A stretch of DNA of 64,000 nucleotides from Niastella sp. (GTDB lineage Bacteria > Bacteroidota > Bacteroidia > Chitinophagales > Chitinophagaceae), in NCBI GenBank assembly GCA_017744515.1, contig JAGIBF010000046.1, positions 1 to 64,000 on the forward strand, in the 5' to 3' direction. Under the pieces are notes generated by a model that saw only the letters and a program-made list of their open reading frames with translations, made no database searches and was not told the origin of the DNA. The position numbers and the translations under genes are program-made. Numbering within the stretch: the stretch's first letter is position 1; the number at the start of each line of letters is the position of its first letter. This document shows positions 2,195 through 6,383 of this stretch, piece after piece.

Positions 2195-3643
2195 TTATTC
2201 TCCCATTACTTCTCCGCCTTTTTTCATCCATGGCCTGGGTGCTGCACCATCCATTTTCACGATCTTAGGATAAAACAGACCTACAGTATCTACAAGATGT
2301 TGCTGGGCATTCATCACTGTATAGATATCCTTATAGGCATGTGGGGCCTCATCCAATCCACCTCCCAGCAGTTTCACGCCATGCTTTGTAAGCATTTCCT
2401 GTAAAGCGTTCTTTGTGATGGCATTCAAGGCAGCCGTTCTGCTCATTTTACGTCCCGCTCCATGCGAAGCGGAATTGATCGACGCCAGTTCACCCTTACC
2501 TTTTACGATAAAGCCAGGCGCCGTCATGGAACCAGGAATGATACCCAGCACATTCTTACCGGCAGGTGTAGCACCTTTTCTATGCACGATCACTTCCCGC
2601 CCTTCGTACATTTCCCGCCAGGCAAAGTTATGGTGGTTCTCTACCATTTTCAACGGCTGCCGACCCAATTGCTGCGCAATCTTGGCATGGATCACATGAT
2701 GACAGGCGCTTGCATAATCCCCCGCCAGGTTCATAGCCATCCAGTATTCTATTCCTTCATGTTCATCCATTGCCAGCCACGCCAGGTTATTGGCTTCACC
2801 CGGCAAACGCCTTTTCTGTTTAGCCACTTTGGTATAGTGATTGGCAATATTCGCACCCAATGCACGTGATCCTGAATGCGATAACAGTCCGAGGTAATTT
2901 CCCGGCGCCACACCCAACTGCTCATCCTTCTCTTTTACCTCAACAATCCCAAACTCTACAAAGTGGTTTCCTGAGCCGGAAGACCCCAATTGCCTGGCAG
3001 CCTTTCCCTGTAATCCTTTCAACAGAGGCAGCTGATCAAACTCCGGACGATCTATCACCGGATGCGCTGTGGATTGTTCAAACTGTCTTCCTCCACCAAA
3101 CAAAGTAGCCTCATTCAACTCACGGGTAAAATACTGCTCACGCTGTGTCAACTCTTTTGGATCTATATCGAATATGGATAAGCACATCCGGCATCCGATG
3201 TCAACGCCTACACCATATGGTATCACGGCGTTTTCTGTAGCCAATACTCCTCCGATCGGCAACCCATATCCTGCATGCGCATCCGGCATCAAAGCGCCTG
3301 CTATAGACACTGGCAGCTTAGCTGCCTGATACATCTGGTCCATAGCCCCGGGCTCGATGTACTCTCCTCCAAATACATTGAACTGGATACCAGTTGAATT
3401 CAGCGATATTTCCACACCTTCCGGTACCGGCTTAGGCAATAATTGTTGCGCCACGGGCGCCAGTATAGCATCCTCCACATACTCAGCCGGAGTAGCCAAT
3501 ACGTTCTTTAATATTTCTATTGCCTGTTCGGTAGTATGATGCTTGTAATTACGCTCCATCACATTCATGGCAATACTGATCACGGGTCCTTCCGGAAAAC
3601 CTATTGCCCTTAATTCTTTTCCTTTCAATTTTAACTTAGCCAT
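2195..3643 (-). CDS. rtcB: RtcB family RNA-splicing ligase
   Basis: PDAHAGYGLPIGGVLAT, GVDIGCRMC, GSSGSGNHFVEFG, SHSGSRALG, ENHHNFAW, SHGAGRKMSRTAA; the metal and GMP-His motifs of RtcB. Confidence 0.95.
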   Translation of the reverse strand: MAKLKLKGKELRAIGFPEGPVISIAMNVMERNYKHHTTEQAIEILKNVLATPAEYVEDAILAPVAQQLLPKPVPEGVEISLNSTGIQFNVFGGEYIEPGAMDQMYQAAKLPVSIAGALMPDAHAGYGLPIGGVLATENAVIPYGVGVDIGCRMCLSIFDIDPKELTQREQYFTRELNEATLFGGGRQFEQSTAHPVIDRPEFDQLPLLKGLQGKAARQLGSSGSGNHFVEFGIVEVKEKDEQLGVAPGNYLGLLSHSGSRALGANIANHYTKVAKQKRRLPGEANNLAWLAMDEHEGIEYWMAMNLAGDYASACHHVIHAKIAQQLGRQPLKMVENHHNFAWREMYEGREVIVHRKGATPAGKNVLGIIPGSMTAPGFIVKGKGELASINSASHGAGRKMSRTAALNAITKNALQEMLTKHGVKLLGGGLDEAPHAYKDIYTVMNAQQHLVDTVGLFYPKIVKMDGAAPRPWMKKGGEVMGE

Positions 3644-3648
3644 ATTAC

Positions 3649-4722
3649 TTAATTTTCAATAACAGCTCTCCTGAATCCAATTACCTGCACTTGTTGTTGC
3701 TGGCTTACCGGCTCACCCGGATTGGTGATCTCAGCAATGGTCATGGGCTGTTTTATTAATGTATCGAATCCCAGTTGATTGCTCAGTCTTTGCGCTTTTG
3801 GAATACTCAATTTACCAAATTCGTATCGTGCAATCAACCTGCCCTTCCGCATCAGCGCACTATCTATCATCGTCAATGAGCTATTAAATGTACAGATCAA
3901 TTGCACATTCAAAAAGTCAGCCAGTAGCCCATCAGAAATATTCAGCAGATTGGATACTGAGGAATGAGGATTGTTTCTCCTGTCCATGATCACATTTTCT
4001 GCATCTTCGATGATCACCACACTATTGGGGTTATCGATGAGCAAATCAATGAAATCAGGATCAGTGAGGCTTCCTGCGATATTGGGAGACAAAAACATTA
4101 CTTTCTTTTTGATCCGCCCAATTAAGTGACGCAGATAGGTAGTCTTACCCGATCCCGGCACTCCATGCAGTAATACGATCCCTTTATCATCCTTTTGGTT
4201 CAACCGTTTCCTGATATGTGCATCTACCTCTTGGAAATCATCTTCGTAGTAGAGGTCGAGGTCCAGTTTTGTACGCTTGATCTCCATTGCTTTCAATTCG
4301 AGATAGTTGCCACTCTTAACGATCAGGTTGATCTCCAACGGCTTTCTGCGCTGCCTTTCTTTGAATTGACGCAGGAAGCCAATCAGTTCTCCGATCAGCA
4401 GTTCGTTGGCGCTATCATGCAGAAGCTCACAATAGCCTTCAGAAAACTCCAGCACACAACGGTCTTTCAGGATCACGATCGTGTCGTTAAAATCAACTTT
4501 TTTATCGCCCCGTTTGAATTTACGGTACGTATGTACCGACTCAACGAGCGCTTTATATTTTTCCTGGAAAGCTGTATATGCCTTTTCACCCTCGATATCG
4601 TCTACAAAACTGATACAGGGAACAGCAGCAAAACAGTACATGTATAAAGCTTTGCTATCTATATAATAATTATCAAAAATGCTATTGGCATTAATGATAC
4701 GCTGGTCTAAAGTGTTGTCCAT
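3649..4722 (-). CDS. AAA family ATPase (BCS1-like)
   Basis: Walker A LLHGVPGSGKTTYLRHL, Walker B SVVIIEDAENVI, sensor-type segment LICTFNSSLTMIDSALMRKGRL; 5 bp upstream of rtcB on the same strand. Confidence 0.85.
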   Translation of the reverse strand: MDNTLDQRIINANSIFDNYYIDSKALYMYCFAAVPCISFVDDIEGEKAYTAFQEKYKALVESVHTYRKFKRGDKKVDFNDTIVILKDRCVLEFSEGYCELLHDSANELLIGELIGFLRQFKERQRRKPLEINLIVKSGNYLELKAMEIKRTKLDLDLYYEDDFQEVDAHIRKRLNQKDDKGIVLLHGVPGSGKTTYLRHLIGRIKKKVMFLSPNIAGSLTDPDFIDLLIDNPNSVVIIEDAENVIMDRRNNPHSSVSNLLNISDGLLADFLNVQLICTFNSSLTMIDSALMRKGRLIARYEFGKLSIPKAQRLSNQLGFDTLIKQPMTIAEITNPGEPVSQQQQVQVIGFRRAVIEN

Positions 4723-4779: not shown

Positions 4780-4836
4780 GTTTCAAAAACAGTTCGCTAT
4801 TTCATTACACGAGTGCGCATAAAATGTGGTTTTAAG

Positions 4837-4907
4837 CGGGAACAGGATGATTCGAACATCCGTCCATCCGTTAACAGCGGAGCGTTCTGCCATTGAACTA
4901 TATTCCC
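4837..4907 (-). tRNA. tRNA-Asn-like (anticodon GTT), compact, no encoded CCA
   Basis: Acceptor GGGAATA/TGTTCCC, D arm GTTC-AATGGCA-GAAC, anticodon loop CTGTTAA, T arm GGATG-TTCGAAT-CATCC, G73; 4-nt variable loop, 71 nt. Confidence 0.85.
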
Positions 4908-4910
4908 AAT

Positions 4911-5048
4911 AACAGGGTAATGAGTCGAAAAGTGCACATATGTCCATTGCTCTGCCAACTGAGCTACCGGCCCATTGCATGTTCCGGGCTGGACTCGAAC
5001 CAGCGACACATGGGTTATCCGAAGTAACACTTCTCTACGACACCTGTT
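4911..5048 (-). ncRNA. Y-RNA-like element 1: Ro-type stem plus tRNA module circularly permuted at the anticodon arm
   Basis: Outer stem AACAGG/CCTGTT, TGTCGTA internal loop, stem GAGAAGTG/CACTTTTC, TTACTTCGG; then CCAT, T arm GCTGG-TTCGAGT-CCAGC, CCGGAAC-ATGCAAT-GGGCCGG, TA, D arm GCTC-AGTTGGCA-GAGC, ATGG. Confidence 0.75.
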
Positions 5049-5049
5049 G

Positions 5050-5120
5050 ACGGCTTAAGAAGACTCGAACTTCTATCTGTACGTTCGTAGCGTACTATTC
5101 TTCCTTTAAACTATAAGCCG
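5050..5120 (-). tRNA. tRNA-Arg-like (anticodon ACG)
   Basis: Acceptor CGGCTTA/TAAGCCG, anticodon arm GTACG-CTACGAA-CGTAC, T arm AGAAG-TTCGAGT-CTTCT, 4-nt variable loop; T73 atypical. Confidence 0.85.
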
Positions 5121-5123
5121 ATG

Positions 5124-5195
5124 GTTGTCTTTGGGCCTCGAACCCTGTTCTCCTCATTCACAGTGAGGTATTTTACCTGTTAAACTAAAGACAAC
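5124..5195 (-). tRNA. tRNA-His-like (anticodon GTG) with G-1:C73
   Basis: Acceptor TTGTCTT/AAGACAA preceded by G-1 and followed by C73; anticodon arm CCTCA-CTGTGAA-TGAGG; T stem shortened. Confidence 0.85.
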
Positions 5196-5201
5196 ATACT
5201 G

Positions 5202-5274
5202 ATACCGGGCTCAGATTCGAACTGAGAACATCACAGTCAAAGTGTGATATGTTGGCCGGTTACACTACCCGGTA
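5202..5274 (-). tRNA. tRNA-Gln-like (anticodon TTG)
   Basis: Acceptor TACCGGG/CCCGGTA, anticodon arm TCACA-CTTTGAC-TGTGA, T arm CTCAG-TTCGAAT-CTGAG; T73 atypical. Confidence 0.85.
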
Positions 5275-5277
5275 TTG

Positions 5278-5351
5278 TTGGCCCGGTGAGAGTCGAACTC
5301 ACAACCCAGGGAGTAAAAGTCCCTTACTCTGCCTGCTTGAGCTACGAGCCA
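5278..5351 (-). tRNA. tRNA-Lys (anticodon TTT)
   Basis: Acceptor TGGCTCG/CGGGCCA, D arm GCTC...GAGT, anticodon arm AGGGA-CTTTTAC-TCCCT, T arm GTGAG-TTCGACT-CTCAC, A73. Confidence 0.9.
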
Positions 5352-5363
5352 ATGTTTATTCTG

Positions 5364-5436
5364 TTGACCTGCCGGGGCTCGAACCCGGAGCTTTCTGCGT
5401 ATAAGGCAGCTACTCTTACCATTGAGTTACAGGTCA
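5364..5436 (-). tRNA. tRNA-Ile-like with unusual anticodon TAT
   Basis: Acceptor TGACCTG/CAGGTCA, D arm ACTC...GAGT, anticodon arm GCTGC-CTTATAC-GCAGA, T arm CCGGG-TTCGAGC-CCCGG, A73. Confidence 0.8.
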
Positions 5437-5441
5437 GGCGT

Positions 5442-5510
5442 TGCGACCTTCAGATTCGAACTGAGATCTTCACCTTATGAGGGTGATATGCTACCCTTAC
5501 ACCAGGTCAC
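5442..5510 (-). tRNA. tRNA-Met/Ile2-like (anticodon CAT), short form
   Basis: Acceptor GTGACCT/AGGTCGC, anticodon arm TCACC-CTCATAA-GGTGA, T loop TTCGAAT with 4-bp T stem; about 69 nt. Confidence 0.8.
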
Positions 5511-5517
5511 AATAAGT

Positions 5518-5588
5518 ATAGCGGCAACAGGTTAACAGTGTTTAGCTTTGATCCTCAGTCGAAGTATCACTGTTTTACGACACGCTAT
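5518..5588 (-). ncRNA. Y-RNA-like element 2: minimal form without tRNA module
   Basis: Outer stem ATAGCG/CGCTAT, TGTCGTA internal-loop strand, stem AACAGTG/CACTGTT, ATACTTCGA; 71 nt. Confidence 0.65.
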
Positions 5589-5589
5589 G

Positions 5590-5662
5590 TATAGCAGGCA
5601 GGACTCGAACCTGCACCCTCTTCGTTCCAGGCGAAGTATCCAACCAATTGGAATGCTGCTAT
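5590..5662 (-). tRNA. tRNA-Pro-like (anticodon TGG)
   Basis: Acceptor ATAGCAG/CTGCTAT, anticodon arm CTTCG-CCTGGAA-CGAAG, T arm GCAGG-TTCGAGT-CCTGC, A73; position 8 is C. Confidence 0.85.
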
Positions 5663-5667
5663 AAGTT

Positions 5668-5808
5668 GAATGAGCTATAAGATGCACAGCGACTATGATC
5701 TCTGAGCTATCCTGCCCAAAAGACAGGAGCAGGAGTTGAACCCGCGACCTTTCCGACACAAGTACCGGAACGCTCTAACCGAAGTAACGCTATGCTACGG
5801 CATCATTC
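5668..5808 (-). ncRNA. Y-RNA-like element 3: Ro-type stem plus tRNA module circularly permuted in the D-loop
   Basis: Outer stem GAATGA/TCATTC, TGCCGTA, stem GCATAGCG/CGCTGTGC, TTACTTCGG; then TTAGAGC, TTCCG...CGGAA hairpin, T arm GCGGG-TTCAACT-CCTGC, TCCTGTC-TTTTG-GGCAGGA, TA, GCTC. Confidence 0.75.
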
Positions 5809-5814
5809 AATATG

Positions 5815-6348
5815 TTAGTCCATTACTGTTTTTTGTATCTGCACAAGATGTCTTTGCGCATGTTGCACCAGAAAATAGATATAATGATATACATCTATTT
5901 TACCAAGACTATTGACTGTCATCGTTGTTTTATACAACACCCCCTGCCCATCCTTCATTTGATCAAGCAGATCAAGGCACTCCTGCACCTGTAATTGCAT
6001 CGTTCTTTTAATGTCATTCATTGATACTGTCCCGGAAGGCTCCATATGATCAGGTCTATGCCATCTGAAAGCATCGGGCTGCCCGATCAATTCCAGTTTT
6101 GACCAGTCGAGGTCATAATCAGTTAGCATGTCCCGATAACTTTGAGTTCTTGAGCGCTCTAACGCCTTGATCGTTCCCTTCCGGATCAGTATCAACAGAT
6201 ACTTATTGGTCAGGGATATATGTTCCAGTATTTTAGCGACACTCCAACCACCATTTTCAGGCGCATGGTAGAGTTTATCATCATTCACATCGAACCACCT
6301 CAACACTTCATCAAAAGTGCCGGTGAGTTCTGTCCTTATCTTGCTCAT
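5815..6348 (-). CDS. DinB-superfamily (YfiT/DinB_2-like) protein
   Basis: MSKIRTELTGTFDEVLRWF, WSVAKILEHISLTNKY, HYIYFLVQHAQRHLVQI; start chosen after AAGGAGG; stop lies 6 nt before the RNA array. Confidence 0.75.
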   Translation of the reverse strand: MSKIRTELTGTFDEVLRWFDVNDDKLYHAPENGGWSVAKILEHISLTNKYLLILIRKGTIKALERSRTQSYRDMLTDYDLDWSKLELIGQPDAFRWHRPDHMEPSGTVSMNDIKRTMQLQVQECLDLLDQMKDGQGVLYKTTMTVNSLGKIDVYHYIYFLVQHAQRHLVQIQKTVMD

Positions 6349-6383
6349 AAAATCCTCCTTCATGCATTTAACTTTTTGGAAAA

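Follow-up and report, generated by a model that had tools for sequence, protein, structure and literature searches.

On the minus strand of the window, by which we mean the whole stretch of 64,000 nucleotides of Niastella sp. DNA analyzed here, the gene of a Ro60 ortholog is followed by a gene for a DinB-superfamily protein, by an array in which three elements, named E3, E2 and E1, are interspersed with eight tRNA genes, and by the genes of an AAA ATPase and of the RNA ligase RtcB (Table 1). Along this strand, the array reads E3, tRNA-Pro, E2, tRNA-Met, tRNA-Ile, tRNA-Lys, tRNA-Gln, tRNA-His, tRNA-Arg, E1 and tRNA-Asn.

Table 1. Genes, tRNAs and elements of the cassette, with the evidence for each.
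Feature	Position	Strand	Evidence
Ro60 ortholog (TROVE + vWA), 505 aa	6443..7960	-	Pfam PF05731 (2.9e-26) and PF25045
DinB-superfamily protein, between Ro60 and the array	5815..6363	-	Pfam PF12867
E3, putative Y RNA whose tRNA head is opened in the D-loop	5668..5808	-	Perfect handle, folds
tRNA, probable Pro(UGG), C at position 33	5590..5662	-	Rfam tRNA, 51.9 bits; not called by ARAGORN
E2, putative short Y RNA: handle and 20-nt closing loop, without tRNA domain	5518..5588	-	Handle comparison
tRNA-Met(CAU)	5440..5511	-	Rfam and ARAGORN
tRNA-Ile(UAU)	5363..5436	-	Rfam and ARAGORN
tRNA-Lys(UUU)	5277..5351	-	Rfam and ARAGORN
tRNA-Gln(UUG)	5201..5274	-	Rfam and ARAGORN
tRNA-His(GUG)	5123..5195	-	Rfam and ARAGORN
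tRNA-Arg(ACG), 3' end abutting E1 (gap 0)	5049..5120	-	Rfam and ARAGORN
E1, YrlA-type Y RNA whose tRNA head is permuted at the anticodon loop	4911..5048	-	Rfam, covariation, remnant frame
Segment of E1 covered by the Rfam YrlA model	4925..5034	-	RF02553 alignment
tRNA-Asn(GUU), starting 3 nt past E1	4836..4907	-	Rfam and ARAGORN
AAA ATPase, downstream of the array	3649..4722	-	Pfam PF00004 (1.2e-9)
RtcB RNA ligase	2195..3643	-	Pfam PF01139 (2.2e-78)

The identity of the Ro60 protein is firm. Its AlphaFold2 model (pLDDT 86) has the TROVE ring and vWA fold and resembles known Ro60 structures with TM scores of about 0.6-0.7. A fold search of the PDB gave 13 matches at E<=0.001, every one of them a Ro60/TROVE protein, and the closest PDB sequences are likewise TROVE proteins. 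Over the first 50 nt, the tRNAs of the array share no more than 70% identity with the other tRNAs of the genome, among which most of the same anticodons (Asn, Arg-ACG, His, Gln, Lys, Met and Pro) are found as well. At gathering thresholds, Rfam returned only tRNAs.

A conserved handle beside Ro60 genes

A sequence-only reading of this region had described E1, E2 and E3 as Y-like elements built on a shared, covarying scaffold of Ro type, in which an outer stem, an internal loop of 7-8/10 nt and an inner stem follow each other. These stems are indeed present in the three elements, perfectly or nearly perfectly paired. In E1, the outer stem AACAGG/CCUGUU precedes UGUCGUA, the inner stem GAGAAGUG/CACUUUUC and UUACUUCGG; in E2, AUAGCG/CGCUAU precedes UGUCGUA, AACAGUG/CACUGUU and AUACUUCGA; in E3, GAAUGA/UCAUUC precedes UGCCGUA, GCAUAGCG/CGCUGUGC and, as in E1, UUACUUCGG. 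The elements have two features of bacterial Y RNAs, a terminal stem formed by the 5' and 3' ends and interrupted by a conserved internal loop, and a position beside a Ro60/Rsr gene.

This structure, hereafter the handle, was sought in 80 Ro60 loci of Bacteroidota and in the window's own locus by scanning for UGYCGUA and, at a nearly constant spacing downstream, UACUUCG, one mismatch being tolerated over both motifs together. The scan gave 407 matches, of which 396 lie on the plus strand when the loci are oriented by Ro60. With further loci added, 463 nonredundant handles with partners were collected in 111 loci (one to nine per locus), and the handle adjoins Ro60 in nearly every Ro60-bearing Bacteroidota locus fetched. 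Perfect 6-bp outer and 7-bp inner partners exist for 170 of 338 nonredundant handles. Because the partners had been found by complementarity, stems were also swapped between elements, which left 2-7 such cases, and shuffled downstream DNA gave 3-4; chance complementarity of the stems is ruled out by these two controls.

The two strands of 336 handles with equal geometry were then joined, and every column pair was scored for covariation with an APC-corrected G statistic. The 15 proposed pairs occupy ranks 1-15, the weakest scoring 135 and the next best column pair 29.5. They hold the same ranks in each of five one-per-locus samples of 108, although the statistic is not tree-aware and such sampling only lowers relatedness. 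Two of these pairs, 9-46 and 21-31, covary though they were not used in finding the elements. The former joins the Y of UGYCGUA to the second-last base before the 3' outer stem and is C:G in 250, U:A in 150 and U:G in 23 of the 463 handles; within the 61 loci that hold both states, it is Watson-Crick in 205 of 224 elements. In the window, this Y:R pair is U:A in E1, U:G in E2 and C:G in E3.

The handle is an RNA structure conserved in association with Ro60, and the covarying scaffold proposed from the window is borne out across hundreds of homologues, in the G-test ranking as in the one-per-locus samples. These data also weigh on another explanation, namely that the elements came about by decay or rearrangement of tRNA genes in the array and that their stems arose by chance. 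The elements do sit among tRNAs and contain tRNA pieces, but the 15 covarying handle pairs, the occurrence of the same handle on non-tRNA heads and its linkage to Ro60 leave this explanation a vanishingly small chance, and we regard it as ruled out by the handle covariation.

The consensus comprises a 6-bp stem, a bulged U, a nearly invariant G:C pair, the Y:R pair, a CGUA/GNYUKUU loop, an 8-bp stem and UACUUCG. As the bulged U and the two pairs extend the outer stem, the internal loop of the sequence-only reading was drawn too large and shrinks to CGUA opposite GNYUKUU. The Ro-binding motif of bacterial Y RNAs is close to GNCGAAN(0-1)G, from which the Bacteroidota form GYCGUA departs by one change, a U in place of the first A. 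This U is found in a fraction of 1.00 of 216 handles, in a search that tolerated up to one mismatch over the two motifs.

Among the 299 genomes of the host's family, 21 encode Ro60 and all 21 carry the exact motif beside it, with 70 matches in total, an association which supports the Ro-type reading. The 278 genomes without Ro60 hold 26 exact matches in 21 genomes, scattered except for three in a single congener, G087. The Ro60 of the locus is the likely partner of the handle and, judging from these sequence data, presumably binds it.

The strongest point against a strict dependence on Ro60 comes from G087 (L102:8286-13000), a one-contig genome with DinB, three Y elements, a tRNA array, AAA ATPase (81% to that of the window) and RtcB (91%). 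Its elements have the same outer stems as E3, E2 and E1 (GAAUGA, AUAGCG and AACAGG), and its E3 ortholog has one mismatch in UACUUCG. The Ro60 gene is absent between the response regulator and DinB, and a genome-wide search found no TROVE protein. Since G087 keeps the elements without Ro60, either the elements may act without it or Ro60 was lost recently. A phage origin of the elements was also considered and rejected, the motif being mostly background in IMG/VR contigs, where 9 of 241 exact matches in the contigs fetched passed a loose stem test. By eye, handle-plus-head elements look real on three of these contigs, L142 (two), L297 and L309; the two candidate Y RNAs of the viral contig L142 have motif sites at 3160-3182 and 5700-5722.

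Heads carried by the handle

The shared scaffold proposed for the three elements holds for the handle. Beyond it they are unlike, E1 and E3 carrying tRNA heads of two different topologies and E2 none.

The head of E1 matches the Rfam YrlA family (RF02553) with 40.4 bits (E 3.9e-7, search over 1.3 kb), short of the 69 bits set as gathering score; in the same search, E3 scored 15.8 bits and E2 had no match. The match begins within the inner stem, and the Ro handle is consequently not part of RF02553. From 5' to 3', the E1 head consists of an anticodon-loop remnant (GAU AA), the T arm, the acceptor 3' strand, a linker, the acceptor 5' strand and the D arm. It has been shown that Salmonella YrlA is a permuted tRNA (6CU1) (PMC11472068, PMC8394870). 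E1 is a diverged YrlA-type Y RNA, that is, a circularly permuted tRNA cut at the anticodon, with a closed acceptor; E2 and E3 do not have the anticodon-permuted tRNA-like head of YrlA. Relatives of E1 in 14 further loci score 32-54 bits with RF02553. When the frame of YrlA-type heads is counted back from the T arm, an anticodon loop emerges: among 148 heads, U33 is found in 104 and R37 in 115, and the anticodons are many.

In E3, the head runs GGUUAGAGC, anticodon arm, AGGUC, T arm, acceptor 3' strand, UUUU, acceptor 5' strand and UAGCUCAG. Its D stem forms between the two head ends, which places the handle in the D-loop. The unconstrained minimum free energy fold gives this permuted cloverleaf (z -3.8), and the signature is common to about 20 relatives. 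In an RNAalifold analysis of 18 sequences of the E3 class, the head ends pair as a D stem in 18 of 18. The third D-stem pair, 11-82, is G:C in 12 and A:U in six, the acceptor also varying; as five of the six A:U cases come from Mucilaginibacter, the independent events may be only two. On class-B heads, the anticodon arm was missing from the RNAalifold consensus, probably through misalignment by MAFFT. We know of no Y RNA, or any other RNA, described with a tRNA topology opened in the D-loop.

Taken alone, E2 folds no better than shuffled sequences (z -0.31), and the case for it hence rests on comparison with its relatives. A congener has an E2 ortholog with the identical outer stem AUAGCG, and short handles with a head of less than 40 nt number 94, E2 included, in 80 loci; a T arm is present in 7 of these 94. 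In heads of at least 40 nt, a strict T arm was found in 292 of 369, against 0.65 in shuffles.

A further tRNA topology is seen at L003:8843, L014:4816 and L113:8472, where an unpermuted tRNA runs from D arm to T arm and the handle replaces the acceptor. Automatic calls of such acceptor-less heads (class C) amounted to 13 against 4.8 in shuffles, an excess of only about threefold, for which reason individual cases need inspection. This automatic classing is crude, leaving 108 T-arm heads unclassified, and among the class-C calls true acceptor-less tRNAs stand beside heads of a GGGG..CCCC type. A recurrent head of the order GGGGAGGAAUAGC, hairpin, T arm and CCCC was noticed at L010:9403, L011:6720, L017:8643 and L019:8661; it is tRNA-like without a D arm and is conserved between distant loci.

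At L022:13006-13300, L039:11827-12260 and L020:13556-13770, the Ro handle is followed by a long non-tRNA head. These heads are mutually alike (75-77% over 70-100 nt). Those of L022 and L039 open with a 33-nt stretch beginning GUAACUAUAACGGUCCUAAGGUAGCG that is 94-97% identical to 23S rRNA and that we take to belong to domain IV. In the L020 head, 19 nt match 23S rRNA at 89%, and an Rfam search of this head gave no meaningful match. The three heads may possibly represent an rRNA-mimic Y RNA.

Possible roles of the heads

Collectively, E1, E2 and E3 are very probably Y RNAs of the cassette's own Ro60. The best explanation of the whole, which we consider likely, is that these RNAs combine a Ro60-binding handle with a head serving as the effector part. 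The head would recruit or titrate a partner. Since the T arm is kept in most tRNA-like heads whatever the cut site, the most economical guess is a partner that recognizes the tRNA elbow and not the anticodon or the CCA end, a proposal to which we give even chances.

In Salmonella, damaged tRNAs induce a single operon that holds rsr, the Y RNAs and rtcBA (PMC7790460), and in Anabaena a tRNA operon and rtcB have a common repressor, relieved under translation stress (PMC10272220). In the mechanism that we propose, RNA damage would lead to expression of the Ro60-DinB-Y/tRNA-AAA-RtcB cassette, from which tRNA processing enzymes would free the Y RNAs. The gap between a tRNA 3' end and the following Y 5' start is 0 in 12 of 35 close pairs and lies between -2 and 4 in 28 of 35, and such near-zero gaps between tRNA and handle suggest release by tRNA processing. 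Long runs of tRNA genes with interspersed Y elements were observed in L022, L039 and L121; L022 has repeated tRNAs, with five Met in a row and with alternating Val/Ser and alternating Glu/Gly. Once freed, tRNA-headed Y RNAs may bring tRNA-handling enzymes to Ro60, or tRNA-cutting enzymes for titration, and the short Y RNAs would only occupy or gate the Ro60 ring. RtcB would rejoin damaged tRNAs, and the divergent array tRNAs would replace those that are lost.

The anticodon loops of the heads bear on a decoy role, in which tRNA heads (and elsewhere 23S-like heads) would titrate tRNA- or rRNA-cutting toxins or phage enzymes. The decoys would be stabilized by Ro60 and the handle, RtcB would repair cuts and the divergent array tRNAs would resist cutting. 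Such a role was suggested earlier for YrlA (PMC7790460), and it would fit the many different anticodon loops kept by the heads, the divergence of the array tRNAs from the others of the genome and the presence of RtcB. The isotype predicted from the body also equals the anticodon more often than by chance (top-1 in 19 of 84, against 9.4 permuted), but this match is weak and inflated by related sequences, as the test ignores relatedness. Moreover, E3-type anticodon arms often have short loops and the YrlA-type loop is broken, so that many heads would be poor substrates of an anticodon nuclease, and YrlA was not a substrate of such a nuclease in the study cited. On balance, we regard the decoy role as rather unlikely.

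The diversity of the heads tells in turn against a RYPER-like tether, in which they would dock a nuclease such as PNPase on Ro60 for the degradation of structured RNA, as described for Deinococcus Rsr and its Y RNA (PMC7790460, PMC8394870). The match of the Ro60 fold to Deinococcus Rsr (2nvo) agrees with a tether; however, three tRNA topologies, headless elements and 23S-like heads exceed what one docking site needs, and the cassette genes examined included no PNPase gene. We consider the tether improbable to a similar degree. A more far-reaching view can be advanced only tentatively: the Y RNAs of Bacteroidota may be a repertoire in which one Ro60 handle has been grafted at the anticodon loop, the D-loop and the acceptor of many tRNAs and onto a 23S-like domain, giving Ro60 mimics of the translation machinery for defence against RNA damage or toxins.

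Relation to known Ro60 and Y RNA systems

Y RNAs, YrlA and the tRNA mimicry of YrlA are already known. To our knowledge, attachment of the handle in the D-loop or at the acceptor, the Bacteroidota handle consensus with its Y:R pair and the mixing of multi-copy Y RNAs with tRNA arrays have not been described. The question that these elements address is the role of bacterial Y RNAs and Ro60 beside RtcB. The handle is now defined well enough for finding Y RNAs by sequence, including headless ones outside any Rfam family, and its natural head variants allow one to ask which tRNA surface matters and what the heads recruit. The natural loss of Ro60 in G087, with the elements kept, offers a ready-made test of Ro60-independent function.

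E1 resembles YrlA in its paired ends, its tRNA-like head with a closed acceptor and the stem leaving at the anticodon side, and it is likewise encoded with Ro60 and RtcB. In contrast to YrlA, the handle reads GYCGUA and lies outside RF02553, the cut of E3 lies in the D-loop, E2 lacks a tRNA part, and several copies per locus are interleaved with tRNA genes. The T and D loops of YrlA are modified by TruB and Dus; the heads described here keep T-loop sequences. Similarly, the Salmonella rsr-yrlBA-rtcBA operon also encodes Ro60, Y RNAs and RtcB together, but the present cassette has an AAA ATPase, a DinB-family protein and an eight-tRNA array instead of RtcA and RtcR, neither of which was seen among the cassette genes examined. 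The protein shares the Ro60 fold of Deinococcus radiodurans Rsr, 2nvo being among its fold matches, yet it scores 36 bits with the Rsr equivalog model, whose cut-off is 900. Vertebrate Y RNAs bind Ro60 and have a long terminal helix interrupted near a CGA-like element. The Bacteroidota handle likewise has a long terminal helix that is interrupted, here by a bulged U followed by the G:C and Y:R pairs.
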